DNA of 64,000 nucleotides from Selaginella tamariscina (taxonomy: Eukaryota > Streptophyta > Lycopodiopsida > Selaginellales > Selaginellaceae). A program made the position numbers and the translations under genes. Below the pieces are notes generated by a model, which saw nothing but the letters and a program-made list of their open reading frames with translations, did not search any database and was not told where the DNA came from. Each line of letters begins with the position of its first letter. Position 1 is the first letter of the stretch. The DNA lies in the NCBI GenBank assembly GCA_003024785.1, contig PUQB01000173.1, positions 250,501 to 314,500 of the forward strand. Direction: 5' to 3'. Shown in pieces: positions 242 to 56,489 of this stretch.

Positions 242-834
242 TGTCAAGCCACAATTCAAGAACCAGGAAGAAAGCAGGATTCCAAGAACAAGAAGGCTTG
301 ACTCGGAGCAGGACAGGAACTAGGAACTCAGAAGCAAAATAGGAACATGATAGGATCCGAGAGACAGGAACAAGATAGGATCCGGGAGCAAAATAGGAAG
401 GCGCAGGGTATGATCCAGGAACAAGACAGGAACTGGACAGGATTCAAGACAAGACAGACAAGAGCAAGACAAGCAGGAGGCAAGGAACAAGAGACAAACA
501 AGACAAGAATAAGAATGATGTAGAATGACTGGTGTTGATAGTAACTGATTGTACAACAATTAGGTCGGAGCTTTTATGCTCACAACTCCAAGCTAATCTA
601 GTCATGAGTCTAATCTAGTCATGAGTCTAATCTAGTCATGAGCTAAGAATAGTGACCCTTATCCTCTAGGCATATCCTGTAGCATATCCTATAGGCATAT
701 CCTGTAGGAATATCCTGTAGGTATATCCGTAGGAATATCCTGCAGGCATATCCTGTAGGTATATCCTGTAACCCTATCCTGTATCTGTATCCGGAATCCT
801 GTATCTGAATCCTGTATCTGTATCGGGTGTGACA
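242..834 (-). repeat. 3' LTR of element 1
   Basis: The left LTR on the plus strand is the 3' LTR of the minus-strand element. It runs TG...CA, about 593 bp. The right part (U3) is a run of TATCCTGTAGG-like units. The middle has a TATA-like box (GCATAAAAGC on the element strand), and the left part (U5) is a purine-rich array on the plus strand of AGGA/ACAAGACAGG units. The 13-mer TTGATAGTAACTG lies at 535-547. Confidence 0.92.
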
Positions 835-835
835 G

Positions 836-847
836 CACCTCCTCCCT
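836..847 (-). other. Polypurine tract of element 1
   Basis: On the element strand AGGGAGGAGGTG lies next to the 3' LTR. This is the expected place and composition of the plus-strand primer for reverse transcription. The same tract is at 13937-13948 in element 2. Confidence 0.75.
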
Positions 848-2420
848 AAGGACGAGTTCCACGAGTCTTAGGACCTGGTTTAGCAGGATAATGCCGATGG
901 AAAGCAGCAACTTTGGAAGAAGCATGGAGTAAGTTGGATGCAGGTTCCCAAGTGCGATCGGTAGGCAAATAACCTTTCCAATCCACCAAGTATTGAAGTT
1001 GGCGATGAAGACGAGAATCAAGGATGGCTGCAACTTCGTACTCAGGTTCACCAGCAATGACCACAGGAGGGGGAGGAGAAGAAGCACGACCAGGAAGAGA
1101 AGAAGGATGATACGGCTCCAACAAAGGTGTGAAACACAGGATGAAGTTTCACCGTAGATGGTAACTCGAGTCGGAAAGCTACAGGATTAACCTCCGCCAC
1201 AATCCTGTAAGGGCCCAATCGTTGAAAATCCAACTTAGAAGAAGGCCTGTTGGTGCGAATGTGTCGACGAAGAAGCCACACGAGATCACCAATCTTGTAT
1301 GCAGGTGCGGTTGACGGTGAGCATCAGCATGATGCTTGTATCGTTCCTGTGCCTGCTGAAGATGAACCGGAGATCATCTGTACCTGACGAAGATGCTGAG
1401 ACGATCCTGTACTGCAGGAGCGGAAGAAGGAGAAGCAGGAGGAGCAAAGTCAAAACGTGGATGGTGGCCTGTAAGAGCAAAGAAAGGTGTCTGGCCTGTA
1501 GATGTGTGAACGGAGTTGTTGTAGGCAAACTCCGCCATTGGAAGAAGGTCCAACCAGTTGTCCTGTTGGTAACTGATGAAGCAACGAAGATACTGTTCCA
1601 AGGTCTGAATTGTGCGTTCTGACTGCCCATCAGTTTGCGGATGATATCCTGAAGAAAGATCCGCTTTAACCTGTAGACTCCGAAGAAGCTCTCGCCAAAA
1701 CTTGGACATGAATTGTGGACCTCGATCGGAAACAATGCTCTCAGGAAGACCATGATGTCGGAACACTTCACGGATCACCAACTCGGCAGTTGTTGACCTG
1801 TAGCTGTCTTGTTGCAGGGTAGGAAATGAGCCTGCTTGGTGAAACGGTCAACCACCACAAGAACTGCATCGAATCCACGAGAAGGAGGAAGATCTGTGAG
1901 GAAATCCATAGAAATGGATCTCCAAGGAGCAGAAGGAACAGGAAGAGGACGAAGAAGACCAGAGGGTGCATGATGAGGCATCTTCGACCTGTTACAAGTG
2001 TCACACTCCGTACAAACCTTTCCACAAAACCTCGCAACCCAGGCCACCAATAGTTGCGAGTCACCAACTCCACTGTCTTGGCCACACCAAAATGTCCTGT
2101 AGCCGGGTATCATGACAATCCTGTACCACACGAGTCCTGAAATACCAACAGGAACGTACAGGAGACCTTCCCGGTACAGGAGTCCATCCTGTATGGTGAA
2201 CAGCTTGTAGTCTGAACGGGAACTGGAGGAAGAGGAACTTGCAATGTCAGGATGAATGTGTGAGAACACATTCTTTGCCAAGTCGTCTGTAGCCAACTGC
2301 GAACGGATGTCCTGTAGGAGTGTTGAATTTGCTGGAGCCTGATGAACCTGTAGTGCGCAAGCCGGAATCGATCAGGACCCAACAACACTTGTCTTTGACA
2401 GTCATAGCAGGATCGCCCGG
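846..2420 (-). pseudogene. Integrase plus chromodomain region, element 1
   Basis: Minus-strand pieces in shifting frames cover the zinc-binding region ([15 protein letters not shown] near 2000), the catalytic core ([16 protein letters not shown] and [16 protein letters not shown] near 1600-1780, which hold the second Asp and the Glu of D,D-35-E), the C-terminal integrase part, and a chromodomain ([24 protein letters not shown] near 890-1060). The family inserts the cDNA; the chromodomain is thought to steer integration to marked chromatin. At least four frame breaks separate the pieces, so no intact protein is made as read. The same region in element 2 is cleaner. Confidence 0.88.
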
Positions 2421-3760
2421 GATCGGTGCAAGGTAAGAGCGCCTAGACAATGCGTCCGCCTTGCCATTCCAAAAACCGGGCCTGTAGACGATGACGAAAT
2501 CAAAACGTGATAGGAACTCCGCCCACCTAGCCTGTCGCCGACTGAGAACTCGAGCCGTTTGAAAATACTCCAGGTTCTTGTGATCCGTAAGAACTTGTAC
2601 AGGATGCGCAGCACCTTCCAGGAAATGCCGCCACTCTCGAACGAATCCACAATGGCCTTGAGTTCCTTGTCATGAATCTCGTAATTGATCTCCGCCGAAA
2701 GGAACTTACGAGAGTGAAAAGCTACAGGATGAAGCAACTTGTCTTCTCCAACTTGTGATAGACGGATCCTACTGCAAAATCCGAGGCATCTGCTTCAACG
2801 AAGAAAGGACGAGAAGGATCAGGATGTGCTAAAATCGGAGCTGTCGTGAAGGCGTCCTTGAGTGTTGTGAATGCATGTTCCGCCTTGTCGGACCAAGAGA
2901 AAACCCTGTGCGCTTGGTGAGTTCCGTGAGTGGAAGTACACGCTTGGAGAAGTCCTGTATGAACCGCCTGTAGAAGTTTGCAAAGCCAAGGAAACATTGT
3001 ACATCTCGTACAGACTTGGGCCTCTCCCACTCCACGATGGTCTTCACCTTGTGCATGTCCATGGAAACGCCAGCAGGAGAGACGATGTAGCCCAAGAACT
3101 CCACAGAATCCCTATCGAAAAAACACTTCTCCAACTTCGCATACAGGCCATGCTCGCGAAGCCGCTGTAGAACAATCGTACATGCTTGTCATGTGCCGCC
3201 TGGTCCTTGGAGAAAATCAAAATGTCGTCGAGGTAGATCACCACAAACTGGTCCAAGAAGTCACGAAAGATGTGTTCACCATGTGTTGGAACACGGCTGG
3301 GGCATTGGTAAGGCCGAAAGGCATCACCGTGTACTCGAAGTGTCCATACCTTGTACGAAAGGCAGTCTTCCACTCATCGCCTGGACGAATCCGTACAAGG
3401 TTGTAGGCCCCTCGTAAGTCGATCTTCGTGAACACCTTTGCTCCTCGCAGCCGATCGAGAAGTTCCGGGATCAATGGCAACGGGTACCGATTCCGATGGT
3501 GACTTGATTCAAACCCCTGTAGTCCACAACCAAACGTAAACTCCCATCCTTCTTCTTGACAAAAAGATAGGTGCTCTGCAGGGGACTTTGAGTGACGAAT
3601 GAAGCCGGATGCCAAGTTGTCCTCGATGTACTGACGAAGAACCTCCAACTCTGTGGGTGACAGTGCATAAATCGGTCCGAACGGTGGAGTCTTTCCTTCG
3701 CAAGATCAATAGGACAGTCGTAGGACCTGTGAACAGGAAGAACTGCAGCCTTGTGCTTGT
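2421..3760 (-). pseudogene. Reverse transcriptase and RNase H region, element 1
   Basis: RT motifs seen on the minus strand include [19 protein letters not shown] (about 3500-3570), [15 protein letters not shown] and [14 protein letters not shown] (about 3350-3440), [13 protein letters not shown] (3290-3330) and the catalytic IYLDDILIFSKD (about 3200-3240). RNase H follows with [12 protein letters not shown] (2770-2810) and [23 protein letters not shown] (2650-2720). The wording is close to the sushi/Tf1-type branch of Ty3 elements. Frame breaks lie between most blocks. This segment is entirely missing from element 2. Confidence 0.9.
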
Positions 3761-4439
3761 CAAAAACGTCCTGAAAGGAGTGATACTTGGATGGTAGGGA
3801 AGGAGGAGAAGGAGATTGAAAAACAGGAGAGTCAGACACAGGAAAGGTAGAAGAGGACGTAGGAGTTACTTGAAAGGCAAAAAGGTGGAAAGGAGCAGGA
3901 TCAGTGGCAAGTTCATGCATGGTAGTGGTAAGAACTCGGAGAGGAGAAGGAGGGAGCTGTGACTGAAAAAGAGGAAGGATCTTGGGGGTGGAACAGAAGC
4001 AGAGTAACAAAAGGAGGCAGGATTGGGAGAAACCTGTGTGGATGTTGATGAGTGTACAGGATTGGAAGAATCCTGTACAGAAGTCCGTGGTTGCACAGGA
4101 GTGAGGGAAGCCTGAGTGTGCTGACGAACCAACAGGAGGTGGATCCTGTTGAGGAGGAACCTTCGACACTGATACAGGATTGGAAGAACCCTGTACAGGA
4201 ATCCGCAAACTTACAGGAGTGGAGAGAGCCTGCGGATGTGCTGAGGAACTGACATGAGGTGAATCCTGTCGAGAAGGAGTCTTCAATACTGATACAGGAA
4301 CAGGCACGGTCAATCCTGTAGCTTGTACTGCCTCAGTACTAAGGATGTATCCTGCACGAGGATGGTACAGGATTGATCCTACTGTCGGAGAGGAAAACGT
4401 GAGCGTCCTAGCCCTCCAGTCGATCTGCGGATTTGCAAC

Positions 4440-6366
4440 AACGAACCATGGCATGCCCAAAATGATGGGAGTCGACCGAGTCTTGATCAAGTTGAAGGAA
4501 ATTGAACATTGAATGTGCCATGACTGCAAGAGAGAGGTTCGGTACATGGGTAACTGCAGAAGCAATCAAACACCCATCGGCCACCTCTACAGGAACTGCA
4601 CGCTTCAACTTCACCACCGAAATGCCATGTTGAGTTGCAAAAGTGTCATTCATAAAGCATGCATTTGCACCATGTCTAATAGGCAAACTCCTTGAGCTCT
4701 CGATTATTAAGATGAATGTGTACAGGAAACTTAAGTGATGGAATGGTATGAGCAGCACCAATGGAGCCTACACCTACGTCCAACTTCGCGGCTCCTAGAC
4801 GAAGTGGACATTAGAGTTTTCCGACTGAACTTCAGCTTCAACTTCATGCGTCTTGAACTTCCTAGCTTTAATAGGACATTCTGCCACCTGTCACAACCCG
4901 ATACAGGATACAGGATGCAGGATACAGGATTCCGGATACATGATACAGGATGTAGATTTCGGATACAGGATACGGGTTACAGGATATGCCTGCAGGATAT
5001 TCCTACAGGATATACCTATAGGATATTCCTATAGGATATGCCCATAGGATATGCTACAGGATATGCCTAGAGGATAAGGGACACTATTCTTAGCTCATGA
5101 CTAGATTAGACTCATGACTAGATTAGCTTGGAGTTGTGAGCATAAAAGCTCCGACCTAATTGTTGTACAATTAGTTACTATCAACACCAGTCATTCTACG
5201 ATCATTCTTGTTCTTGTCTTGTCTTGCTTCTTTGCTTCCTTCTCTTGTCTCGCTCCTGGATCCTGTCCTGTTCCTATTTCGCTCCTAGATCCAGTCCTGT
5301 TCCTGTCTTACTCCTGGATCCTGTCTTGCGCATTCCTGTCCTACTCCTGGATCCTGTCCTGTGTCTTCTCTTGCTCCTGAGTTCCTAGTTCCTGTCTTGT
5401 TTCCTATTCTGCTCCTGAGTCAAGCCTTCCTACTCTTAGAATCCTGCTCACTTCCTGTTTCTTGGATTGTGGCTTGACACCACCTTGTGTCCTGCTTCAC
5501 CATAATACAAGCATAGGTTCTCACTGTGGCGATGTTGCTTCTCAGCAGCAAAAGAGAGCCACGCTTGGATTTCTCAACCTCCATAGGGACTATTCCAGAA
5601 GGTGGTGCAGGAACATGTATCACAACTGCAAGATTGGTTTGCATGAACTGCTGACAGGATCTTTCCTGATGACGCTCAAACAAATGGTTGTCACAACGAT
5701 CAGCTTGTTGCATGATCTCCGCTAATGTTTGGGCATCCGGTAACGTAAGGAGAAGGTCCTTCACGTCATCCCTCAACCCAAAACGGAAGTGTTCGATCAA
5801 TGCAGTCTCGTCTCATGGAATGTTCGTGCAAAGTTGCTGAAATTCGAATGCATAGACGGAAGCTGGTCGGGATCCTTGAGTGAGCTTTCGTAACTTCGTG
5901 CATGCAGAATGGTACTTGTCAGGATCCCCAAAGCAGGCTTCAAAGGCAGCCACAAAACTTTCAAAGTCTTCCATTAATGGGTCGTCACACTTCAGCAAGG
6001 GGGCAACCCAAGCCCGTGGAGATCCACTTAGTAAGGATGCCAAAAGGCCAGCCTTTTGTGCATCAGTCGAGTAGCGCCGTGTTGCATGCAGATCAAGAGC
6101 CGGATCTGATTTAAAAAACCTTGGAAATCGGCACGATTGCCATTGAACTTTTTTGGCATGCTGATCTTCGACTCCGAAGAAAAGTTCGATGAAGAGGGAA
6201 TCACCGATGCCTGAGAAAGAGCCTGTGCAGCAGCCTTGAAGGATGCGTCAGCAGCTGCATGTGCCACATTGGTGGAACCTTGCAGATCGGTGACCACTTG
6301 GCACAAAGTGGCCAGCTCATAAAGCAACATTTGGTGCTCACGTTGAAATTACTCAAAATTGGCCAT
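4440..6366 (-). pseudogene. Gag-protease region of element 1, split by a solo LTR
   Basis: Minus-strand gag starts at an ATG at 6366 but meets an in-frame TAA within seven codons. Gag continues in pieces (MPKKFNGNRADFQGFLNQIR; FGDPDKYHSACTKLRKL; HFRFGLRDDVKDLLLTL). It is then broken at 4889-5479 by an LTR of the same family in the opposite direction. The protease follows. In element 2 its active site reads LLDTGAN; here a base is lost and the frame reads PIRHGAN, so the catalytic Asp is gone as read. A proline/serine-rich linker with about 120-bp repeats leads towards RT. Confidence 0.87.
4889..5479 (+). mobile_element. Solo LTR of the same family, reverse orientation, inside gag
   Basis: A 591-bp TG...CA sequence equals the reverse complement of the flanking LTRs. 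It is bounded by the 5-bp duplication CCACC (4884-4888 and 5480-5484). Element 2 shows the uninterrupted gag sequence at the matching place (about 16454-16460, a single CCACC), which proves insertion here. No internal sequence remains, so the copy is the product of LTR-LTR recombination or an LTR-only insertion. It is oriented on the plus strand, opposite to its host element. Confidence 0.93.
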
Positions 6367-6458
6367 GATCTATGAAAGAAAAAAAAAAGGGGGGAGGAAA
6401 ATGAAGAAGAAGAATCAAGGGAAAAAAAAGTAACTGGAAATCAGAAAGCTATGAAATA

Positions 6459-6470
6459 AGTTACTATCAA
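6459..6470 (-). other. Putative self-primer binding site of element 1
   Basis: Directly inside the 5' LTR, after a 2-base spacer, the element strand reads TTGATAGTAACT. This is not the usual plant PBS complementary to initiator Met-tRNA (TGGTATCAGAGC type). It is complementary over 12 bases to the LTR sequence at 6788-6800. See the finding on self-priming. Confidence 0.65.
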
Positions 6471-6472
6471 AC

Positions 6473-7076
6473 TGTCAAGCCACGATCCAGGAACCAGGAA
6501 GAAAGCAGGATTCCAAGAACAAGAAGGCTTGACTCGAGAGCAAGATAGAGAGCAGGACAGGAACTAGGAACTCAGGAGCAAGACAGGAACAGGATAGGAT
6601 TCGGGAGAAACAGGAACATGATAGGATCCGAGAGCAAGACAGGAAGGCGCAGGGTAGGATCCAGGAACAAGACAGAAACTGGACAGGATCCGAGAGCAGG
6701 ACAGGATTCGAGAGCAAGACAAGAGCAGGAGGCAAGGAACAAGAGACAAACAAGACAAGAACAAGAATGATCGTAGAATGACTGGTGTTGATAGTAACTG
6801 ATTGTACAACAATTAGGTCGGAGCTTTTATGCTCACAACTCCAAGTTAATCTGGTCATGAGTCTAATCTAATCATGAGCTAAGAATAGTGACCCTTATCC
6901 TCTAGGCATATCCTATAGCATATCCTATAGGCATATCCTGTAGAAATATCCTATAGGTATATCCCATAGGAATATCCTGTAGGCATATCCTGTAAGTATA
7001 TCTTGTAACCCGTATCCTGAATCCTGTATCCTGAATCCTGTATCCGGAATCCTGCATCCTGTATTAGGTTGTGACA
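6473..7076 (-). repeat. 5' LTR of element 1
   Basis: The right LTR, about 604 bp and TG...CA, matches 242-834 throughout. It is the 5' LTR of the minus-strand element and should hold its promoter. The TATA-like GCATAAAAG on the element strand is near 6824-6832. The sequence complementary to the primer-binding site (6788-6800) lies about 26-30 bases downstream of it, where transcription would be expected to start. Confidence 0.92.
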
Positions 7077-7081
7077 GGTTT

Positions 7082-12790: not shown

Positions 12791-13304
12791 ACTTGTAAAA
12801 CTTCTTTGGTGCTTGCTATGAAGTCTTGGTGGTTGCAAGGACGCGTCCAATCTCGAGGGTCCATGCTAGTAAGCTGGCCTTACTCGGGAATACCGAAAGG
12901 TGTTGAATGGCCTCTACCCATACACCTTGAGGGTCCGTGTATAGGGTGGGGGAGTTCTGCTAGAGCAATGATGCCGCTTGGTAGCTGAATACGTTGTTGG
13001 CCTAGGAGCGGAGCGAGAGGAGAATCACCGGAGAGATGGTGAACAAAAGGGACATGTATATATATATATATATATATTGCCTGACTGAGCACAAGATGCC
13101 TCAGGAAGGTGGAGCAAGATACAAGACAAAAACTGGACTAGAAGGACCACGATTCACTACCAACCTTCCTGCTTATATAGTGGATTGGCTAGTGCTAGCC
13201 CTAGGTACAGGTGGCACTCTCTCACTGGTTTGCCGCCATGTGATAGAGTCCTACCTTTCACATTTATGCACTTTCCTTATGTGTGTTATCCCAAGTACCT
13301 TAGG
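12791..13304 (+). repeat. Third repeat family, left part, interrupted by element 2
   Basis: It matches about 25011-25258 (shared landmarks: GGTGTTGAATGGCCTCTAC, GGCACTCTCTCACT, GCCGCCATGTGATAGAG, AAGTACCTTAGG against CAGTACCTTGGG). The sequence continues at 18092 beyond element 2. A short TA microsatellite is at about 13056-13077. No gene is seen. Confidence 0.75.
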
Positions 13305-13935
13305 TGTCAAGCCACGATCTAGGAACAAGGAAGTGAGCAGGATTACGAAAACAAGGAGGCTTGACTCAGGAGCAGGACAAGGAGTAGGACAGGAACTTGG
13401 AACTCAGGAATAGCAGGAGCAAGACAAGGAGCAGGATAGGAACCGGAGCAGGATAGCAGGACAAGGAGCAGGATAGGAACCGGAGCAGGATAGGGACAAG
13501 GAACTGGAGCAGGATAGTAGGACAGGAACAGGATGGAACTGGAACTCAGGAATCAAGTAGGATAGGATCAGGAGCGAGACAAGAACAAGACAGGATCCGA
13601 GAGCAAGACAAGAGCAGGAGGCAAGGAACAAGAACAAAAAGACAAGAACAAGAATGATCGTAGAATGACTGGTGTTGATAGTAACTGATTGTACAACAAT
13701 TAGGTCGGAGCTTTTATGCTCACAACTCCAAGCTAATCTAGTCATGAGTCTAATCTAGTCATGAGCTAAGAATAGTGTCCCTTATCCTCTAGGCATATCC
13801 TGTAGCATATCCTATAGGCATATCCTATAGGAATATCCATAGGTATATCCTGTAGGAATATCCTGCAGGCATATCCTGTAACCCGTATCCTGTATCCGAA
13901 ATCCTGCATCCTGTATCCTGTATCGGGTTGTGACA
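13305..13935 (-). repeat. 3' LTR of element 2
   Basis: About 631 bp, TG...CA, with the same plan as the element 1 LTRs: U3 array of CCTGTAGG/CATATCC units, a TATA-like box (13711-13718 on the plus strand), and a purine-rich U5 array (about 13320-13640). TTGATAGTAACTG is at 13675-13687. Confidence 0.92.
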
Positions 13936-13936
13936 G

Positions 13937-13948
13937 CACCTCCTCCCT
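13937..13948 (-). other. Polypurine tract of element 2
   Basis: AGGGAGGAGGTG on the element strand, next to the 3' LTR; identical to that of element 1. Confidence 0.75.
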
Positions 13949-15440
13949 AAGGACGAGTTCCACGAGTCTTAGGACCTGGTTTAGCAGGATAATGCCGATG
14001 GAAGGCAGCAACTTTGGAAGAAGCATGGAGTAAGTTGGATGCAGGTTCCCAAGTGCGATCGGTAGGCAAATAACCTTTCCAATCCACCAAGTATTGAAGT
14101 TGGCGGCGATGAAGACGAGAATCAAGGATGGCTGCAACTTCGTACTCAGGTTCACCAGCAATGACCACAGGAGGGGGAGGAGAAGAAGCACGACCAGGAA
14201 GAGAAGAAGGATGATACGGCTCCAACAAGGAGGTGTGAAACACAGGATGAAGTTTCACCGTGGATGGTAACTCGAGTCGGAAAGCTACAGGATTTACCTC
14301 CGCCACGATCCTGTAAGGGCCCAATCGTTGAAAATCCAACTTAGAAGAAGGCCTGTTGGTGCGAATGTGTCGACGAAGAAGCCACACGAGATCACCAATC
14401 TTGTATGCAGGTGCCGGCTGACGGTGAGCATCAGCATGATGCTTGTACCGTTCCTGTGCCTGCTGAAGGTGAACCTGGAGATCATCCTGTACCTGCCGAA
14501 GATGCTGAAGACGATCCTGTACTGCAGGAGCGGAAGAAGGAGAAGCGGGAGGAGCAAAGTCAAAACGTGGATGGTGGCCTGTAAGAGCAAAGAAAGGTGT
14601 CTGTCCTGTAGATGCGTGAACGGAGTTGTTGTAGGCAAACTCCGCCATTGGAAGAAGGTCCAACCAGTTGTCCTGCTGGTAACTGATGAAGCAACGAAGA
14701 TACTGTTCTAAGGTCTGAATTGTGCGTTCGGACTGCCCATCGGTTTGTGGGTGATATCCTGAAGAAAGATCCGCTTTAACCTGTAGACTCCGAAGAAGCT
14801 CTCGCCAAAACTTGGACATGAATTGTGGACCTCGATCGGAAACAATGCTCTCAGGAAGACCATGATGTCGGAACACTCACGGATCACCAACTCGCAGTTG
14901 TCTGACCTGTAGCTGTCTTGTTGCAGGTAGGAAATGAGCCTGCTTGGTGAAACGGTCAACCACCACAAGAACTGCATCGAATCCACGAGAAGGAGGAAGA
15001 TCTGTGAGGAAATCCATAGAAATGGATCTCCAAGGAGCAGAAGGAACAGGAAGAGGACGAAGAAGACCAGAGGTGCATGACGAGGCATCTTCGACCTGTT
15101 GCAGGTGTCACAACTCCGTACAAACCTTTCCACAAAACCTCGCAACCCAGGCCACCAATAGTTGCGAGTCACCAACTCAACTGTCTTGGCCACACCAAAA
15201 TGTCCTGTAGCCGGGATCATGACAATCCTGTACCACACGAGTCCTGCAAACACCAACAGGAACGTACAGGAGACCTTCCCGGTACAGGAGTCCATCCTGT
15301 ATGGTGAACAGGTTGTAGTCTGACGGGAACTGGAGAAGAGGAACTTGCAATGTCAGGATGAATGTGTGAGAACACATTCTTGCCAAGTCGTCTGTAGCCA
15401 ACTGCGAACGGATGTCCTGTAGAAGTGTTGAATTGCTGGA
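13947..15440 (-). CDS. Integrase with C-terminal chromodomain, element 2 (frame breaks)
   Basis: Minus-strand frames at 15401-14708 cover the zinc-binding region ([26 protein letters not shown]) and the first catalytic Asp region. The frame 14876-13947 (309 codons) is intact. It runs from [12 protein letters not shown] through [16 protein letters not shown], a [19 protein letters not shown] segment typical of the Ty3 integrase C-terminus, and the chromodomain ([29 protein letters not shown]), ending [12 protein letters not shown]. The chromodomain carries aromatic positions expected for methyl-lysine reading. The protein would insert cDNA. Its upstream partner RT is deleted in this copy. Confidence 0.9.
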
Positions 15441-15454
15441 GCCTGATGAACCTG

Positions 15455-17343
15455 TAGTGCTGATGAACGGAAAAGAGGTGAATCCTGTCGAGGAGGAACC
15501 TTCGACACTAATACAGGATTGGAAGAACCCTGTACAGGAATCCGCGACCTTACAGGAATGGAGAAAGCCTGCGGATGTGCTGAGGAACTGACATGAGGTG
15601 AATCTTGCCGAGGAAGAGTCTTCAACACTGATACAGGATTGGAAGAACCCTGTACAGGAATCCGCAACTTACAGGAGTGGAGAAAGCCTGCGGATGTGCT
15701 GAGGAACCAACAGGAGGTGGATCCTGTTGAGGAGGAACTTTCGACACTGATACAGGATTGGAAGAACCCTGTACAGGAATCCGCAAACTTACAGGAGTGG
15801 AGAGAGCCTGCGGATGTGCTGAGGAGCTGACATGAGGTGAATCCTGTCGAGGAGGAGTCTTCAACACTGATACAGGAACAGGCACAGTCAATCCTGTAGC
15901 TTGTACTGCCTCAGACACCAAGGATGTATCCTGCACGCAGGAAGGTACAGGATTGATCTTGGCTGCTGGAGAGGAAAACGTGAGCGTCCTAGACCTCCAG
16001 TCGATCTGCGGATTTGCAACAACGAACCATGGCATGCCAAAAATGATGGGAGTCGACCGAGTCTTGATCAAGTTGAAGGAAATCGAACAGTTGAATGCGC
16101 CATGACTGCAAGAGAGAGGTTGGTAGCGTGGGTAACTGCGCCAGAAGCAATCAAACGACCATCGGCCACCTCTACAGGAACTGCACGCTTCAACTTCACC
16201 ACCGGAATGCCATGCTGAGCTGCAAAAGTGTCATCCATGAAACATGCATTTGCACCAGTGTCTAACAGGGCAAACTCCTTGAGCTCTCGGTTATTGAGGC
16301 GAATGTGTACAGGAAACTTGAGTGATGAAATGGTATGAGCAACACCAATGGAGCCTGCACTTACGTCCAACTTCGCGGCTCCTAGACGGAGTGGACATTG
16401 AACTTCGGCTTCAACTTCGCACGTCTTGAACTTCTTGGCTTTAGCAGGACATTCCGCCACCTTGTGTCCTACTTCACCACAATACAAGCATAAGTTCTCA
16501 CTACGACGGCGTTGCTTTTCCGCAGCTGAAAGTGGACCACGCTTGTATTTCTCAACCTCCATAGGGACTACTCCAGAAGGTGTCACAGGAACATGTGCTA
16601 CAGCTGCAGGATTGACTTGCAGGAACTGCTGACGAGATTTTTCCTGACGACGTTCGAACAAACGGTTGTCACAGCGAACGGCCTGTTGGATGATCTCTGC
16701 TAAGGTTTGGGCATCCGGTAACGTAAGGAGAAGGTCCTTCACGTCATCCCTCAACCCAAAACGGAAATGTTCGATCAATGCAGTCTCATCCCATGGAACG
16801 TTCGTGCAAAGTTGTTGAAATTCGGATGCATAAACAGAAACTGGTCGGGATCCTTGTGTGAGCTTGCGTAACTTCGTGCATGCGGAATGGTACTTATCAG
16901 GATCTCCAAAGCAGGCTTCAAAGGCAGCCACGAATCCTTCAAAATCTTCCATCAATGGATCGTCACGTTCCAGCAAAGGGGCAACCCAAGCCGGGAGATC
17001 CACTTAGTAAGGATGCCAAAAGGCCAACCTTTTGTGCATCAGTCGAGTAGCGGCGTGGTTGCATGCGGATCAAGAGCCGGATCTGATTCAGGAAACCTTG
17101 GAAATCGGCACGGTTGCCACTGAACTTTTCTGGCATGCTGATCTTCGGCTCCGAAGAAAAGTTCGATGAAGAAGGAACCACTGATGCCTGAGAGAGAGCC
17201 TGCGCAGCAGCCTTGGAGGATGCATCAGCAGCTGCATGTGCCGCATGGGTGGAGCCTTGCAGATCGGTGACCACTTGGCGCAAAGTGGCCAGCTCATGAA
17301 GCAACATTTGGTGCTCGCGTTGAATCTGCTCAAAAACGGCCAT
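15455..17343 (-). CDS. Gag-protease polyprotein of element 2 (frame breaks)
   Basis: The ATG at 17343 opens a gag with a coiled-coil-like N-terminus, then FSGNRADFQGFLNQIR. A frame change near 16985-17000 leads to a long frame (17003-16068) with the capsid-like part, a CCHC zinc knuckle CLYCGEVGHKVAEC (about 16490), and a retropepsin-like protease with LLDTGANACF (about 16265). After another break near 16070 the protease end and a Pro/Ser/Val-rich linker follow. Gag packages the RNA and the protease cleaves the polyprotein. Gag and protease share one frame with no evident stop between them, as in single-ORF Tf1/sushi-type elements. The remaining breaks could be sequence errors. Confidence 0.85.
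15480..15960 (-). repeat. About 120-bp tandem repeats in the protease-to-pol linker
   Basis: Four diverged units start near 15480, 15600, 15719 and 15840 (spacing 119-121 bp). Each encodes variants of PVQGSSNPVSVSK, SSAHPQA and PPRQDSP. Element 1 has the same array with fewer clear units (about 4020, 4141 and 4261). Each unit holds both ATACAGGA and CCTGTACAGG, which can pair with each other in RNA. Confidence 0.82.
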
Positions 17344-17421
17344 GATCTATGAAAGAAAAAAGGAGGAAAATGAAGGAAGAAAACAAGGAAAAAAAGTAAC
17401 TGGAAACGGAAAGCTATGAAG

Positions 17422-17434
17422 CAGTTACTATCAA
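17422..17434 (-). other. Putative self-primer binding site of element 2
   Basis: The element strand reads TTGATAGTAACTG two bases inside the 5' LTR. It is the exact reverse complement of the 13 bases CAGTTACTATCAA predicted at the transcript start (LTR copy at 13675-13687). The match ends sharply on both sides. No match to a common tRNA 3' end is apparent to me. Confidence 0.7.
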
Positions 17435-17436
17435 AC

Positions 17437-18091
17437 TGTCAAGCCACGATCCAGGAACAAGGAAGTGAGCAGGATTCGAAACAAGGAGGCTTGACTCAGG
17501 AGCAGGACAAGGAGTAGGACAGGAACTTGGAACTCAGGAACAGAACAAGGAGCAAGACAAGGAGCAGGATAGGAACTGGAGCAGGATAGCAGACAAGGAC
17601 AGGATAGGAACTGGCAGGATAGCAGGACAAGGAACTAGGATAGGAACTGGAGCAGGATAGCAGGACAGGGAACAGGATAGGAACTGGGAACTCAGGAATC
17701 AAAGTAGGATAGGATCTAGGAGCGAGACAAGAACAAGAAGGATCCGAGAGCAAGACAAAAGTAGGAGGCAAGGAACAAGATACAAACAAGACAAAAACAA
17801 GAATGATCATAGAATGACTGGTGTTATAGTAACTGATTGTACAACAATTAAGTCGGAGCTTTTATGCTCACAACTCCAAGCTAATCTAGTCATGAGTCTA
17901 ATCTAGTCATGAGCTAAGAATAGTGTCCCTTATCCTCTAGGCATATCCTGTAGCATATCCTATAGGCATATCCTATAGGAATATCCTATAGGTATATCCT
18001 GTAGGAATATCCTGCAAGCATATCCTATAACCCGTATTCTGTATCCGAAATCCTGCATCCTGCATCCTGTATCCTGTATCTGGTTGTGACA
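17437..18091 (-). repeat. 5' LTR of element 2
   Basis: About 655 bp, TG...CA. The expected promoter end of the element. The self-primer sequence here has lost two bases (GTTATAGTAACTG at about 17823-17835), leaving about 10 continuous bases complementary to the PBS. The TATA-like GCATAAA on the element strand lies near 17861-17867, about 26 bases upstream of that sequence. Confidence 0.92.
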
Positions 18092-19159
18092 TTAGGTAGT
18101 TAATCCGAACGATTGGATCTATGCCTGGTTAAGCGCCACATGATAGCTGTCGTCATCAGTCCATACCTGTGGCACCTTCCTTGCTCAGCACTCCGTCCTG
18201 TCCCTCGTTTGTGTCGGTTGACAATTTGATGATGGTCAAACCAATGTCAACCAGATGCCCGAACTTATTCATTGGCATGTTCTTATGCCATTCCCTCAGA
18301 CGTTTAACCCCATAGTGCTCCCGATACATGGTGATTTCGCTCTCTATTGCGGCCAACGTTGTCTTTAGAGTGGCAATGGTCGCATCCCGTAGTGTGATTA
18401 CTCTCTGTCATTGCTCCTAGATCTGCTTGAGCTGGACCTCAAGTTCCTGAGTCTGCTCTCACGAGTGTTGCAGCTCCTGTTCCCTTATGGTGAGGAGTTG
18501 AGCCTATAGCTAAGTGTGTACCTCTAATTCCATGGTGGTCCGCAATGAGTCCTGCGAGGCCTCAATCGATCGGCGTTCCTCGAGTGGTGGGAACAAAACT
18601 ATGGCCCATTGCACTTCTGCGTGGGTTTCTCTGAGGAGGGCACGGGAGTGGCTTTGAGCTAGCTGGTTGCCCGGTGCTATTCTTCTTTGGATGCTGCCAA
18701 CTCTTGGTGGACCTTTTTGAGCTCTGTCTCACGTTGCTTGAGTTCAAAGCCAAGCTCGAAAACTCGCCGCTCCCTCTTCCTACTCATAGTTCTGTCCGAG
18801 TTGATCATGGAGCTTTTGGAGGCTATCATACTTGATTTGGAGTTGATTCAAATTGTCGGTTATCTATTAGCACACCTCCTTTACTTGCTTCCTCCCGGCT
18901 TCTGTGATCACTCGTAATTGAACTCCCTAGAGAAGCTATTCCAAATACCCCCGGGCCTCCTTTTGAGCGGTCTAGTAGTTGTCTGTGAGCTTTGTCACTA
19001 TGGCATCATGCTCTGTATACACTTCAAAGAGGTCTGAGTCGTTGTACATTGCTACGGCCTTCTTGATCCGATCAAAGGCCTTGGCCAGTTCAAGATGCAT
19101 TGTGGAGTGGCCCATTGCCCCTTAGCGTTCTAATGTCTGTAAGCCCTGCTCAACACGTT
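18092..19159 (-). repeat. Third repeat family, right part, with broken coiled-coil-like frame
   Basis: The continuation of 12791-13304 beyond element 2; its first 350 bases match about 25252-25620. On the minus strand there are broken frames (18156-18356 with MYREHYGVKRLREWHKNMP, 18562-18753) rich in Gln, Glu and Leu, which look like part of a coiled-coil protein, perhaps a retroelement gag. Not recognised with confidence. It stops abruptly where the inverted-repeat arm begins. Confidence 0.55.
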
Positions 19160-19346
19160 ATGGGAACAACATTGTAACAGGAAGTGCTGTAAAATTTGTT
19201 AGCATAAATGAGAACCTACTATATATATGTTATTATGTATATATGTTCTTACAGTTAACAAGCATGATAAGTGCAATCAAAATCAAGTGCTTTATAGGAG
19301 CTCTAGGCCTATCATCCTCCTTAGGAAGTTCCAATTCGATATGCAT
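19160..19346 (-). pseudogene. 5' stub of ZIFL transporter (duplicated copy)
   Basis: Exon 1 on the minus strand (19346-19253, 94 bp from ATG) matches ZIFL exon 1 at 28996-29089 almost base for base and keeps its splice donor. The start of exon 2 (19186 to about 19160, encoding LPVTMLFP) is cut off at the duplication breakpoint. Without the 12-helix body it cannot make a transporter. It would transcribe outward into repeat DNA. Confidence 0.88.
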
Positions 19347-21985
19347 GGTTCTACAAAATTGCCACAAATAAATTTTCTTGTTTCAAGCATTTGCCTGCAT
19401 ATGTATATACGATTGACCCACAGAGTCAGTCAAACAAACAACGCCAGAGAGTCTCCGAGACTTTAACGCTGTGCATTGCTGTCGTGAGAATTCCTTGCCA
19501 GAATGTTATTCATGTATATGTAAATATTTTATTATTTTACATTAATATTATTATTAGGACTTTATGCTCTAACCCATATGCTTACAGATCATAACTTAAT
19601 ATTACTGAAACTACTATTTCCAAATGCTGACTCATCACGACCATCCAATCGGCATTCTGAATGTATTAAGTGGTAACTATGGTTTAGAATATGCTTATAT
19701 ATGTGCATGTTGGTTAATGACGATACTTCACAGAGTCCATGTTATTACAACTTACAGCAATTAAAAGTAAATATACTATTATATATAATTATACAGTTTT
19801 AGGCGATGAAAGAAGGTTCTTGTTACATTGGTTGTTGAATAACAGCCGTTGAGTAAGTCAATATGCACAATGGCAGCAATCGTTTAGCGTATATATAATA
19901 TTATCCTTGAAGCTGCATATAGACGATAAAGGAGGTTAATCTTGACTCTTAAATATAAAATTTGAAGAGTATTTAGAATTATAGATGGGCATGTGTACTA
20001 GTATACTATTTAAAACTAAATTATGTAATCAAGGGTGCAATATTCTCATCACTTATATCCTTTAGGACTTTATATATCTATGTTCCGTATATGTCTGATT
20101 ATGGCTCTATAATAATTTAACGAGTTGAAATATAAGAGATAATATGTATGAATATACTGTGTGTAAGTTTAATACATGTATTTTGCACTCTTATCGATTA
20201 AGTTACATTTGGAAACTCTAATAGAATGGTCATTTATATCTTTAATATAATATTTAAAATTAAATGATGTAACGTACGATTTTAAAGTAGAAAAATACAC
20301 TCTCTCTATTTGAGATTACTTGTGGTAAACACTGCCGAGAAATTATAATTGGAGATCTGAATCTTTGGGCTGCATGGATACAAATTATAGGTGGGCATTG
20401 GAGTTTTCACAGGATGATTAGCTTTAAAATTATGCATTTTTCCTAGGGAAAATTACATTTATACCTCGAAATTTATCGTCTCTACGTATATATCCTTATA
20501 AGTTTTATATTTCTATATATATCCTTCTAAAAAATTTAGATTTACATGTATATTTTTATAAGAAAATTAATTATAATATTTAATTTTAAAATAATAATAT
20601 TAATTAAAAATATATTTTTCAATTCATAATATAATGCAAACGAAATAATTAAAATTTATTAAGTGTTAAATGTTAAGAAATTATCGTAATAAAAAATGAA
20701 ATATTTTTTAAAAAATATATTGCGATATATATGTTTAATAGGTTATATTTTGAACCTAAATATAATAAAATATAAATTAATTATAATTTTTTATTAATTT
20801 TTAAAAATGATTTTTTAATTTTTAACTTCTAAATTTATAAAATTTTAAATTGAAGTTTAAAGAATATATAAATAAAACTTCTAGAGATTTACATGTAAAT
20901 ATGATAAATTTCAAAAGTATAAATATAATTTTTTTATTAGATGTAAGAAGTTTAAAAAACACAAAATAAACATGGCATTACCTTTGTAACACCAACTGGT
21001 TATTGATGAAATTTTTTTGTGACAAGTCTGCGTTTGCAAATGAGACAAAGGCCGATTGTGACTTGTGAGGGATAGGCAATTAGAAACTGTCTGTCCCACG
21101 AGTCTATGACTTTTCCTGTGGCAAAACGCTGCATTTTTGCCACTGACAGAGCGTTGCATAATTATAATGGTTTCTTATCACAAAAGGAACCATCTTATAG
21201 TGAGCTGATTTGATTTCACTAGAACCGTTTCAGTAAGTCGAAGGGCTGGATAAAACTTTAAGTGTAGAAAATCAATATGACAAACGACTCCGTGGAGCTT
21301 GCCATGGAAGCCTCGAGTAAGTCCGGGACATGTTATAAAGTGGATCCCAGAGAAAAAGAAGGAGGTGATGTGTCTTCGTGTACATATGCCAAACGACTTA
21401 TTTGGACTTTATTAATTACGTGGCCTATATAGGTTTACGACAACAATGACTCTTGAAACCTACGACATGTGTAAGTTCTAGCTAATATCATTTCTTTTAA
21501 ACGGGAGAAAGAAAAAACAATTGGTCAAGTCAATGATGTTGCTCTGGATAATCACGAGACTTGACTTAGGTAAGGAATGTGACAATACACACTCGTAGAC
21601 AAAATTTGCCGAGGCCAGCTGCATGTACTTGTGGGGCTCAATACAGACGTAATATAATTAAGGATAATAAAGATCTACTGGAAATTACCTTGTATGGGAG
21701 GTGTTGATACATAGGATGTATATATAGAGTTAGTTCTGTATGCAAATGGTAGGTAGAAAATGCAAGAGCTATTAAGAAGGAACACTTGGGGATACCCAGT
21801 TCACACTAGTTCCGATGAATGTATTAAATTCATTGATGAATATTATTACCAGGTCTCAGTTTCTAGTTTTTATGTTCTTTTCTTCTTACTCTTGTTTTTA
21901 TATAGGTGCTGAGTTATGGATCCTCGTCTACTAGAGTTATTCTTCAAGCGGTGGAGGAAGACAAGAACTGTGCCTTAGCAAATGC
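19160..21985 (+). repeat. Left arm of a large inverted duplication
   Basis: It matches 25837-29172 in reverse orientation over its whole length. The arm holds, from left to right, a 5' stub of the ZIFL gene (minus), about 2.4 kb of AT-rich upstream DNA, and the first exon and a half of the TTC38-like gene (plus), which continues past the arm. Breakpoints are sharp: inside ZIFL exon 2 on the left and inside TTC38 exon 2 on the right. The arms differ by many substitutions and small indels, so the event is not recent. The AT-rich core (about 20440-20950) is very low in complexity. Confidence 0.92.
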
Positions 21986-25836: not shown

Positions 25837-26062
25837 GCATTTGCTAAGGCACAGTTCTTGTCTTCCTCCACCACTTGAAGAATAACTTTAGTAGATGAGG
25901 ATCCATAACTCAGCACCTATATAAAAACGACAGTAAGAAGAAAAGAACATAAAAACTAGAAACTGAGACCTGGCAATAATATTCATCAATGAATTTAATA
26001 CATTCATCGGAACTAGTGTGAACTGGGTATCCCCAAGTGTTCCTTCTTAATAGCTCTTGCAT
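25837..26062 (-). pseudogene. 5' stub of the TTC38-like gene (duplicated copy)
   Basis: Minus-strand exon 1 (26062-25970, 93 bp, ATG kept) and the first 80 bp of exon 2 (25916-25837) match the complete gene at 21760. The splice sites are kept. The copy is cut at the arm boundary next to an integrase fragment, so only about 57 codons could be made. Confidence 0.88.
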
Positions 26063-28189
26063 TTTCTACCTACCATTTACATACAGAACTAACTCTATAT
26101 ATACATCCTACCTCCCATACAAGGTAATTTCCAGTAGATCTTTATTATCCTTAATTATATTACGTCTGTATTGAGCCCCACAAGTACATGCACCTGGCCT
26201 CGGCAAATTTGTCTACGTGTGTGTATTGTCACATTCCTTAGCTAAGTCAAGTCTCGTGATTATCCAGAGCAACATCATTGACTTGACCAATTGTTTTTTC
26301 TTTCTCCCGTTTAAAAGAAATGATATCAGCTAGAACTTACACATGAGACCTTCCTCGTAGGTTTCAAGAGTCAAACCTATATAGGCCACGTAATTAATAG
26401 TCCAAATAAGTCGTTTGGCATATGTAGACACCTCCTTTTTTTCTCTGGGATCCACTTTATAACATGTCCCGGACTTACTCGAGGGAAATAAAGCTTCCAT
26501 GGCAAGCTCCACGGAGTCGTTTGTCATATTGATTTTCTACACTTAAAGTTTTATCCATCTCTTGGACTTACTGAAACGGTTCTAGTCAAATCAAATCAGC
26601 TTGACTACACTATAAGATGGTTCCTTTTGTGATAAGAAACCATTATAATTATGCAACGCTCTGTCAGTGGCAAAATGCAGCGTTTTGCCAAGACTCGTGG
26701 GACAGACAGTTTCTAATTGCCTATCCCTCACAAGTCACAATCGGCCTTTGTCTCATTTGCAAACGCAGACTTGTCACAAAAAAAATTTCATCAATAACCA
26801 GTTGGTGTTACAAAGGTAATGCTATGTTTATTTTGTGTATTTTAAACTTCTTACGTCCAATCAAAATAGAAAAAAAACATATATTTATATCTTTCAAATT
26901 TATCATATTTACATATAAATATCCAAAAATTTATATTTACATCTTACTCTCTAAACTTCAATTTAAAATTTCATAAATTTAAAAGTTAAATATTAAAAAA
27001 ACATTTTAAAAAAATTATAATTAATTTATATTTTATTATATTTAGGTTCACAATACAACCTATTAAACATATATATCACAATATATTTAAAAAAATATTT
27101 CATTTTTATTACGATAATTCTTAATAAATTTTAATTATTTTATTTGCAATATATTATGAATTGAAAATATATTTTTAATTATATTATTATTTTAAAATTA
27201 AATTATTATAATTAAAAATTTTAAAAAATATACATGTAAATTTAAATCTTTTAGAAGGATATATACTAAAATATAAAACTTATAGGATATACATGTAAAT
27301 ACGATAAATTTCGGGATAAAATATGCATAATTTTGAAGCTAATCTTCCGTGTGAAAACTCCAATGCCCACCTATAATTTGTATCCATGCAGCCCAAAGAT
27401 TCAGATCTCCAATTATAATTTCTACGGCAGTGTTTACACAAGTAATCTCAAATAGAAAGAGTGTATTTTTCTAATGTTACATCATTTAATTTTAAATATT
27501 ATATCAAAGATATAAATGACCATTCTATTAGAGTTTCCGAATGTAACTGAATCGATAAGAGTGCAAAATACATGTATTAAACTTACACACAGTATATTCA
27601 TACATATTATCTCTTATATTTCAACTAGTTAAATTATTATAGAGCCATAATCAGACATATACGGAACATAGATATGTAGCATATTATATAATTAAATTTA
27701 AATAAAGTCCTAAAGGATATAAGTGATGAGAATATTGCACCCGTGATTACATAATTTATTTTAAATAGTATGCCCATCTATAATTTTAAATACTCTTAAT
27801 AATTTTATTTCCTTTATATTTAAGAGTCAAGATTAACCTCCTTTATCGTCTATATGCAGCTTCCTCGAACCAACAAGGATAATATTATATATACGCTAAG
27901 AGTTAGAAAACGATTGCTGCCATTGTGCATCTTGACTTACTCAACGGCTGTTATTCAACAACCAATGTAACAAGAACTGTATAATTATAGATAATAGTAT
28001 ATTTACTTTTAATTGCTGTAAGTTGTAATAACATGGACTCTGTGAAGTATCGTCATTAACCAACATGCACATATATAAGCATATTCTAAACCATAGTTAC
28101 CACTTAATACATTCAGAATGCCGATTGGATGGTCGTGATGAGTCAGCATTTGGAAATAGTAGTTTCAGTAATATTAAGTTATGATCTGG

Positions 28190-28763
28190 TTCAGAATGTT
28201 AATTTAAAGTTAAATTGTCAGATTAAAATAAAATAAAGTATATATCGATCAGACTTATTACAATTAATAATTTAATAAAAATAAAATAAAAATAAAGTAT
28301 ATATGTCAATCAGGCTTATCATGTAAGAATTAATTCATAACTTAAATATTAATATCCTTGCACTAACCATTACGTAGATTATGGAACAGAGAAAGTTAGG
28401 TGTTCCTCTAGTTGGCCTGCTAGCTACAGTTAATATCCGTCTGCAACGCAGTTCTTCTAGATAACGAGACCTTCTTGTGTTACCGTAACTATTCTGGGAG
28501 TTGATACATAATTAGACACAGCTTGAAGGGCTCCCTAGTGAAGAAGCGTAGGCACCTAGAGAGAGGAAAAACAATGCAAGAAGAAAAGAACAACGAGATA
28601 AGGTTAAGTTTACCGAACTTTATATGTAATTTAGCTCACTTTTTAAGCTATTAATTTTTTACTAAAAGAATACATATAAACATACATGAAATAAATAAAA
28701 TTTAAATACTAAACTAAATTAAATAAGAAAATATTTCTAGACTCTAGATTTTATTTGAACATG
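28190..28763. repeat. Insertion of about 570 bp present only in the right arm
   Basis: The left arm joins ATAAGTTATGATCTGTAAGCAT directly (near 19585 in reverse), while the right arm has this AT-rich block in between. It holds no evident gene. I saw no clear terminal repeats or target duplication, so its nature (insertion here, or deletion in the left arm) is open. Confidence 0.6.
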
Positions 28764-28995
28764 GATAAGCATAACCTGGGTTAGAGCATAAAGTCCTAAT
28801 AATAATATTAATGTAAAATAATAAAATACATGAATAACATTCTGGCAAGGAATTCTCACGACAGCAATGCACAGCGTTAAAGTCTCGGAGACTCTCTGGC
28901 GTTGTTTGTTTGACTGGCTCTGTGGGTCAATCGTATATACATATGCAGGCAAATGCGTGAACAAGAAAATTTATTTGTGGCAATTTTGTAGAACC

Positions 28996-31212
28996 ATGCA
29001 TATCGAATTGGAGCTTCCTAAGGAGGATGATAGGCCTAGAGCTCCTATAAAGCACTTGATTTTGATTGCACTTATCATGCTTGTTAACTGTAAGAACATA
29101 TATACATAATAACATATATATAGTAGGTTCTAATAAATTTTACAGCACTTCCTGTTACAATGTTGTTCCCATATTTATACTTCATGGTGAGTGGCTGTAC
29201 GATATTTCTACTGGTCTTATTTATGGATGGTTTGGATTTCTCAGGTTCGAGATTTTCATGTTGCAAAATCTGACGAAGACATTGGTTACTTCGTTGGATT
29301 GATTGGTAAAATGCAAACCTTCAAAACTGAGAATTAGTTTTTAATATGTAAAATCCAGGATCTGCTTTCCATTTCGGGAGGTTCTCAACTGGCATACTAT
29401 GGGGATTAGTAGCAGACCGTTATGGACGAAAACCTGTTATCTTCGTAGGAGTCATATCAGTGTTTGTGAAATCACTTCTTTTACATTTCCTTGAGATTTG
29501 ACTCTTTGGGATGTTTAAATTCTGCAGACTCGTGTTTAACACTTGGTTTGGGTTTAGTACGAGTGTCTGGATGGCGTTTGCAACGAGGTTTTGCTTTGGA
29601 GGATTGAATGCAATACTCGGAACAGTGCGCACAGTGGCATCAGAGCTGTGTAGCAAGGACTACCAAGCTTTAGCCATGGCAGTGGTAAGTATAGCTTCTT
29701 AAATGATCTAATTAAAGTTGAGAAACTTCTTTAAAGGTCAGCACTGCCTGGGGATTTGGATTGATCATAGGCCCTGCAATAGGCGGTTTCTTAGCTCAGG
29801 TTGGTGTTTTACTTAATATACAGAAATTATTTTATTTAATTTTATTCTATTTTTTATGAAGCCTGCTATCAAGTACCCAGGAGTTTGGCGGTACAATATT
29901 CTCACGGTTCCATTATTTGTTGGCCCCACTTTGTGCCTCATTCTTTGCACTTGTAGTTCTCATCTTATGTGTGTGGCTTCCGGTAATTGAAATCAGATTT
30001 TGCTACTGTAAATTTGCAGTGAAACTTGATTTCATTACAGGAGACACTGCATCGTGGAGCGAAAACAAGCCTGTGCCACAAGTTTCAAAGCTTGCCCTTC
30101 TACGGAACAGACGGCTGATGGTGTCTCTCACCTTGTACGGTCTTGCTAGCCTACATGATTTTGCATATATGGAGGTAAGCATGTTAACATTGTTAATTTA
30201 ACACTATTTAAACAAAATACAGGTCTTTTCTTTATGGGCTGTTAGTCCCAAAGCTGCAGGTGGACTTTCATATTTCCACTTCAGACGTGGGCAGGGTGTT
30301 GTCAGCTGCAGGTTTATTTCTACACATATATATATTATATAAAGATTATTAAAACATACTCTCGAAATACAGGGTGTGGAATGCTGCTGTGGCAGATATT
30401 AGTATTTCCAAAAATACTACCAGAATGGGACCGACTCTTGTAACCCGTGTTGCAGCGGTAAAACTTACTTTGCATGATTACGTGCTTACAAGGTCTTAAG
30501 TGCAGGGACTGACGATGCCTATGCTATGCTTTTATCCATTTCTGTCCGTGCTCCCTCGACAGTGGATTTGGGTGGCTGTTTTTACACTGTCAACTTTGAA
30601 ATACATTTTGATAGTACTAAATACCTAATCTATATATATATATATATATATATGAATTAAGCTCTCCTTTTTCTTGTCAGGAAGGATAATAACAGGATTG
30701 TGCATTTTACTTAATAATTCCACGGTGAGCGTTAATTATAATAATAATATATATTATATATATATCTTAAGTAACAACAAAATTTGACAGAGACAAGAGG
30801 AACGAGGCACAGCCAATGGTCTCGCTCTCAGCCTGGTCTCACTTTTTAAGAGCGTAGGACCTACAGTTGGTGGCTCGGTGTAAGCATCTCTTCTCACACA
30901 CCCACATACGCGTGTGTATATTTCATGTGTGTGCTGTTGTAATGTAAGTGGTGTGAGTGTGTGTGTGAGAGACATGCTGTGACTAAGATGAATCAATCTT
31001 CAGATTCGCATGGTCTCGAACCCGAAAAAATGCAGAGTATCTCCCAGGTGTGTACTACTAATTAATCAGTGAAATGCGTACTAATTAACGACGTCTTAAT
31101 TATAGGCAACGAGTTTCCGTTCTTCTTCCTTGCGGCTTCCATGTTACTCGTCTTTGCAGGAACATATGACAGGTCCTTAATGGAACCAAACCAGTATCTA
31201 CAAATTACTTAA
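28996..31212 (+). CDS. Zinc-induced facilitator-like (ZIFL) MFS transporter, frame breaks
   Basis: Fifteen exons can be traced: 28996-29089, 29146-29186, 29245-29305, 29359-29461, 29528-29684, 29737-29799, 29862-29982, 30041-30174, 30223-30311, 30373-30457, 30506-30613, 30681-30724, 30791-30879, 31004-31047 and 31106-31212. Signatures are LFPYLYFMVRDFH, GRFSTGILWGLVADRYGRKP (MFS motif A), TAWGFGLIIGPAIGGFLAQP, WLP then ETLH, LHDFAYMEVFSLWAVSP and ERGTANGLALSLVSLFKSVGP. ZIFL proteins are 12-helix plasma-membrane or vacuolar exporters linked to zinc, potassium and auxin handling. One-base breaks occur near 29880, 30066, 30268 and 30422, mostly in A or T runs, so the gene is either a young pseudogene or intact with sequence errors. 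Its first exons lie in the right inverted arm. Confidence 0.86.

Positions 31213-56421: not shown

Positions 56422-56489
<68 letters not shown>

Follow-up and report, generated by a model that had tools for sequence, protein, structure and literature searches.

The LTR retrotransposon family described here, which is represented by two elements in a 64-kb stretch of Selaginella tamariscina DNA, is very probably a Ty3 chromovirus of the Tf1/sushi type (Tcn1-like), in which the element's own RNA serves as primer for reverse transcription. Self-priming of this type had been proposed in the original prediction from the sequence, and it is now supported by the position of the PBS, by covariation between the PBS and the LTR primer (in R), by the predicted fold of the leader RNA, by the absence of TGG after the LTR, and by a reverse transcriptase (RT) that stands apart from that of angiosperm chromoviruses.

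Elements of the window and their relatives

The window, meaning the whole 64-kb stretch analysed (C475:250501-314500), carries two minus-strand Ty3-type elements, element 1 (242-7076) and element 2 (13305-18091), with the features given below. Genome counts throughout refer to the assembly of 300,702,823 bases in 1391 contigs.

Element 2
18092-18096 and 13300-13304: target site duplication (TSD) CCTAA, read by hand
17437..18091, minus strand: 5' LTR, TGTCA...TGACA (LTR alignment)
17824..17835, minus strand: damaged self-primer CAGTTACTATAA in the element's own 5' LTR, one base missing
17805..17812, minus strand: LTR strand of the predicted second duplex, CTATGATC in element 2 and CTACGATC in most listed copies (coordinates by counting)
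17444..17451, minus strand: U5 strand of the second duplex, GATCGTGG in element 2 (predicted folds; coordinates by counting)
17422..17434, minus strand: PBS, TTGATAGTAACT plus a drifting 13th base, G
17341..17343, minus strand: likely gag start codon, where the pyrimidine-rich leader ends (by eye)
16068..17003, minus strand: frame for gag capsid and aspartic protease (Pfam)
13947..15352, minus strand: two frames for integrase (H2C2, rve, SH3_Tf2-1) and chromodomain (Pfam)
13711..13719, minus strand: TATA-like GCATAAAAG upstream of the primer, also at 571-579, 6824-6832 and 17859-17867
13675..13687, minus strand: self-primer CAGTTACTATCAA in the 3' LTR, with the predicted transcript start at the A at 13686
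13305..13935, minus strand: 3' LTR (LTR alignment)

Element 1
237-241 and 7077-7081: TSD AAACC, read by hand
6473..7076, minus strand: 5' LTR, primer at 6788-6800 (LTR alignment)
6459..6470, minus strand: PBS, 12 nt
4889..5479, plus strand: solo LTR belonging to this family, nested in element 1, with TSD CCACC (LTR alignment)
242..834, minus strand: 3' LTR, primer at 535-547 (LTR alignment)

Compared with the related copy L033, element 2 is missing about 1.8 kb of RT-RNase H, and its integrase carries at the C-terminus SH3_Tf2-1 together with a chromodomain (PF00385, E 7e-14, Pfam). A tandem duplication at 15457-15914 adjoins this gap, the integrase and chromodomain frames being kept. In element 1 the RT is present and the frames are broken. 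The Pfam domains of L033, namely gag, protease, RVT_1, RNase H, H2C2 and rve, follow the Ty3 order gag-PR-RT-RH-IN, and its best PDB match is Ty3 Gag-Pol; a chromodomain was not among the Pfam hits of its four frames. Elsewhere in the window there are a large inverted duplication (19159-21985 and 25837-29173; 88-94% over long pieces and locally up to 100%, with a spacer of 3.9 kb), a short palindromic repeat that is self-complementary in numerous registers (56372-56526), and genes of the PPR/DYW and PMI1 types, the host being a land plant. For a RING sequence the top hit came from Turnera, with proteins of moss and further non-seed plants among the best named hits, and the host is probably a non-seed plant.

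The RT core of L033 is 51-62% identical to that of four frog elements, which we take to be sushi-like, and 63-74% identical to that of five listed metagenome elements, as against 48-50% in four of the angiosperm rows, 33-38% in the other two, and 50% in Closterium. An RT tree of 31 rows, built without a named Tf1, sushi or Tcn1 reference, places L033 with the four frog and 19 metagenome sequences, opposite six angiosperm sequences and one from Closterium (100/99). In 31 and 53 of more than 20,000 candidates, scored with the queries P0082 and P0001 and thus no census, the hits look like this same lineage together with a second chromovirus, family X (below). Open frames of about 1000-1420 aa in many of the scored hits indicate that this lineage did not die out long ago, and it needs a primer of some kind. 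Hits on C80, C224, C592, C666 and C689, apparently of the same lineage, score alike and have a 1361-aa open frame each, which probably reflects recent activity, and a scored hit on C451 belongs to the same family and has both 12-mers. Relatives were not found in viral contigs, and no other LTR families were recognised inside the fetched loci among the matches listed.

Complementarity and covariation of primer and PBS

On the plus strand of the window CAGTTACTATCAA occurs once, at 17422-17434, where the PBS of element 2 starts 2 nt (GT) past the TGACA end of the LTR, and its reverse complement occurs at 535, 6788 and 13675. The 13-base PBS of element 2, two nucleotides in from the 5' LTR, its exact complement in the LTRs, and the 12-base match of element 1 at 6459-6470 all lie where they had been placed originally, and a TATA-like box does stand upstream of the LTR 13-mer, at a spacing of 24-32 nt that varies with the base of the box from which it is counted. 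The match had further been described as 13 bases long and abrupt on both sides. Its length holds for element 2; the conserved unit, however, is 12 bases, and the LTR side is not abrupt, as AC:GU pairing goes on past one bulged C in the predicted fold.

At offsets 0-5 the longest complement was 13 for element 2 against its own 3' LTR and 12 for element 1, lengths that Markov-shuffled 3' LTRs reached in 0 of 20,000 cases (13) and 3 of 20,000 (12); matches to the 3' LTR from elsewhere in the internal region of element 2 reach 10 at most. Genome-wide, the 13-mer is present in 4950 copies (2482 + 2468, in 300.7 Mb), against eight (7 + 1) for the reversed control. Not every family copy pairs perfectly, which counts against the self-priming reading, as does the non-random choice of the copies sampled. 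All 12 bases are paired with the 5' R by Watson-Crick pairs in 19 of 30 BLAST-chosen junctions (21 when G.U is counted), and with the R of the 3' LTR in 13 of the 21 junctions that have this R in reach. Element 2 itself has lost one base of the primer in its 5' LTR, which reads TATAA in place of TATCAA, so that the element's own transcript would pair imperfectly; intact primer partners are present in its 3' LTR and in element 1.

Co-variation of the PBS and the LTR primer, which the original prediction had named as a check, was looked for, and matching changes in the two were found together. The PBS variant TTGATTGTAACT is present at 62 genome sites (control, 0), and the R variant AGTTACAATCAA, in its context, at 191 exact sites beside 3453 of the main form, giving a baseline of 5.2% (191/3644). 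The sample fetched from the 62 PBS-variant sites numbered 20: the 19 that head the list, and C527:973790, a neighbour of an open-frame hit. In 17 of them R is in reach (within 400 nt), and the compensating AGTTACAATCAA is found in 15 of these 17, or 14 of 16 when C527 is set aside. L065 and L068 carry the PBS variant with the matching R absent, and R is unreadable in the fetched stretch of L061, L066 and L073. When coordinates are joined over contigs up to C694, 30 of 37 PBS-variant places are preceded on their own strand by an exact R variant, with pattern-start spacings of 198-512 nt; the remaining seven are L065, L068, L066, L073 and three places whose R was not read. Set against the 5.2% baseline, 30 of 37 gives a binomial value of 3e-32, which is not a true probability because the copies are related.

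In a rival explanation the R and PBS variants are linked only by shared inheritance in one subfamily, with no mechanism behind it. A table of 67 copies (49 listed junction copies, 17 fetched PBS-variant copies, and L055) comprises 46 with the main form of both, 15 with both variants, three with the R variant only (L012, L013, L018) and three with the PBS variant only (L025, L065, L068). Common descent is favoured by a single tight LTR clade that holds 12 of the 15 copies with both changes, and by an independent-pairs sign test that is not significant, its pairs being too few (mostly three for, none against and two ties; run the other way round, two or three for, and again not significant). On a tree of the LTR flanks, from which the 12-mers were removed and L061, L066 and L073 omitted, the doubly changed state nevertheless has four origins, at least three of them forced by well-supported branches, and the PBS-to-R pattern distances range over the 198-512 nt given above. 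Furthermore, of 318 aligned positions only one separates L013, in which R is variant and the PBS ordinary, from each of L067 and L069, in which both are variant, and this position is the pairing PBS base. Such a difference would be expected if the primer rewrites the PBS, although selection for pairing would look similar, whereas plain linkage offers no reason for the linked change to be complementary. We therefore regard shared inheritance by itself as very unlikely. The 97 genome places with a second class of PBS variants, TTGATAHTAACT, are nearly all G to A changes, for which plain decay may be the cause.

The genome also contains a separate chromovirus, family X (C1076, L053/L054, C1076:59000-66800), whose LTRs are 98.9% identical and whose PBS, LTR-AT-TGGTATCGAAGCAAG, begins 2 nt past the LTR. 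This PBS appears tRNA-Met-like by its motif TGGTATC, which we take to be the PBS for initiator tRNA-Met, and family X has no self-complement of at least 9 nt at offsets -8 to 59. The presence of such a family, together with the use of tRNA-Met by most plant chromoviruses as given in the accessible part of Neumann et al. (2019; PMC6317226), would favour a host tRNA, whole or as a half or fragment, as the primer of the present family as well, the LTR complement being incidental. That is highly improbable, since a mature 3' CCA end needs TGG at the start of the PBS, and TGG after the LTR is absent from all 49 listed junctions, every one of which reads (G/A)T-TT(G/A/C)AT. Likewise, no exact GGTTCGANTCC T-arm in the genome has a 12-mer in the 30 nt before it, a search confined to that form of T-arm and that interval, and the joint change of R and PBS is left unexplained by a tRNA primer. 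ARAGORN found no tRNA in the window or in L009-L033 (25 loci).

Primer length and predicted folding of the leader

The length of the primer was read from 31 PBS junctions, BLAST-chosen with element 2, which are those of L009-L032 minus L010 (overlapping L013) plus that of the window. Departures from the reference letter number 8 in the 372 cells of PBS bases 1-12, as against 10 in the 31 of base 13 (Fisher p 5e-8), and the 16 columns past base 12, base 13 included, depart from the majority letter in 64 of 496 (p 1.5e-9). The working primer unit thus looks like 12 nt, with a 13th base that drifts. This 12/13 boundary and a CA initiator that follows CATAAAAG at a distance, taken by eye, of about 32 nt lead to the prediction that transcription starts at the A of the CA initiator in CAGTTACTATCAA.

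Leaders of 196-784 nt from 49 copies, including 20 (L033-L052) picked for exact 13-mers, were folded from the predicted start to 28 nt beyond the PBS; two of 51 junctions were omitted for want of a recognised primer (L021 and the second of L032), as were L031, with its junction off the pattern, and L010. Pairing of primer and PBS over at least 10 bp is present in 45 of the 49 MFE folds, and 24 of the 49 show 5 bp or more of the U5 duplex. The predicted order of pairing is AGUUACUAUCAA, one bulge, AC:GU, GUCA:UGAC and CUACGAUC:GAUCGUGG, and the flanking LTR duplexes so predicted resemble the Tf1 'pretzel'. In 41-44 of 44 distinct copies the pairs of the U5 duplex are preserved, the last GUCA pair being preserved in just 22, and 29 of 41 distinct R-tail/U5 pairs are matched or bettered by no more than 5% of mononucleotide shuffles. 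Support for the U5 stem consists of conservation and of changes tolerated as G.U, with no double compensation; most of these changes replace C by T opposite G, a direction that plain decay favours as well, so they are weaker evidence than the covariation of the primer. Element 2's own leader, when folded, has no pairing between primer and PBS, owing to the deletion in its primer. The U5 of the L009-L052 LTRs is about 76% pyrimidine, has a middle part of 85 to 673 nt, and by eye seems to consist of degenerate CCTGTTCCTATCC-like repeats.

About 20 nt past the PBS of element 2 there is a second primer-like sequence, CAGTTACT (17395-17402), that could form a hairpin with the PBS. As the main function of the PBS this hairpin was rejected, the CAGTTACT copy being exact in few of the 49 copies. 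A local hairpin of this kind would speak for a non-priming role of the 12-nt complementarity, such as RNA dimerisation or packaging, and the complementarity might otherwise be the relic of a dead family, yet both are highly improbable when the complement lies exactly at the place of the PBS, 2 nt from the LTR end, when PBS bases 1-12 are kept where CAGTTACT is not, and when so many scored hits have long open frames.

Proposed mechanism and comparison with known systems

If the family primes with its own RNA, the transcript, beginning at the predicted A of CAGTTACTATCAA, would fold its first 12 nt, AGUUACUAUCAA, back over the pyrimidine-rich U5 (about 100-700 nt) and pair them with the PBS, UUGAUAGUAACU; here the complementarity is observed and the folding predicted. 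The LTR bases just 3' of the primer would pair with the last bases of U5 in the two duplexes named above and hold the junction. By analogy to Tf1, RNase H would then cut after the 12th nucleotide and RT would extend the freed 3' end, and during plus-strand synthesis the attached primer would be copied into the new PBS. Copying of the attached primer may be why PBS bases 1-12 follow R and base 13 drifts, as the covariation suggests, although selection for pairing would leave the same pattern. We lean somewhat towards the view that replication rewrites the PBS with sequence from the 5' end of the element's own RNA, so that a point change in R reaches the PBS within a few cycles. In that case the comparison of L013 with L067 and L069 would be a rewriting event caught in the act, the drifting base 13 would mark the start of the transcript, and the genome would be a record of priming events, from which both primer length and transcript start could be read in the DNA alone.

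The expectation that self-priming would be notable in a plant holds in part. In the accessible part of Neumann et al. (2019; PMC6317226), most plant chromoviruses of the Tcn1 clade (moss, club-moss) are predicted to be self-primed, which was deduced from complementarity of at least 10 bp; the priming mode is already predicted for this clade, and the covariation evidence is what is added. As described there, the clade resembles the present family in being chromoviruses with a chromodomain, in an RT that groups with non-plant elements and in predicted self-priming, and the present family differs in that covariation and structure now stand beside complementarity. For SM-Tcn1, which has a similarly pyrimidine/T-rich leader, neither tRNA priming nor self-priming was found according to the accessible part of Novikova et al. 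(2010; PMC2864245), where the mechanism is called unclear. Neither a primer length nor a pretzel is given for the Tcn1 clade in the accessible parts of the two papers. In the accessible parts of these sources, self-priming in plants has so far come from sequence complementarity alone, and the mode of the first Selaginella Tcn1 element was left open. Within the open-access subset of the literature, by titles and abstract openings, no report of R/PBS covariation or of a pretzel in a plant element was recognised. The plant elements TAR/Houba/Osr-1 are likewise predicted to be self-primed in the accessible part of PMC6317226, but they belong to Ty1/copia, whereas the Selaginella tamariscina family is Ty3/gypsy.

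Another close likeness is to Tf1 of Schizosaccharomyces pombe, the leader 'pretzel' of which is described in the accessible part of PMC10085805. As in Tf1/sushi elements, a self-primer from the 5' end of the mRNA would pair with a PBS just inside the LTR, and two more duplexes, predicted here, would join PBS-adjacent bases to the LTR bases 3' of the primer (PMC10085805, same part). SH3_Tf2-1 and a chromodomain in the integrase are a further shared trait. The Tf1 primer is 11 nt, and that of the present family appears to be 12 nt; unlike in Tf1, both extra duplexes here would use bases upstream of the PBS, the U5 is long and pyrimidine-rich, and the host is a plant. The thousands of LTR sites in this family, and the covariation that occurs naturally among its copies, make self-priming testable without transposition assays, and the family predicts its transcript start to the base. 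The finding supports the view that the priming mode of this plant lineage is common to fungal and vertebrate elements.
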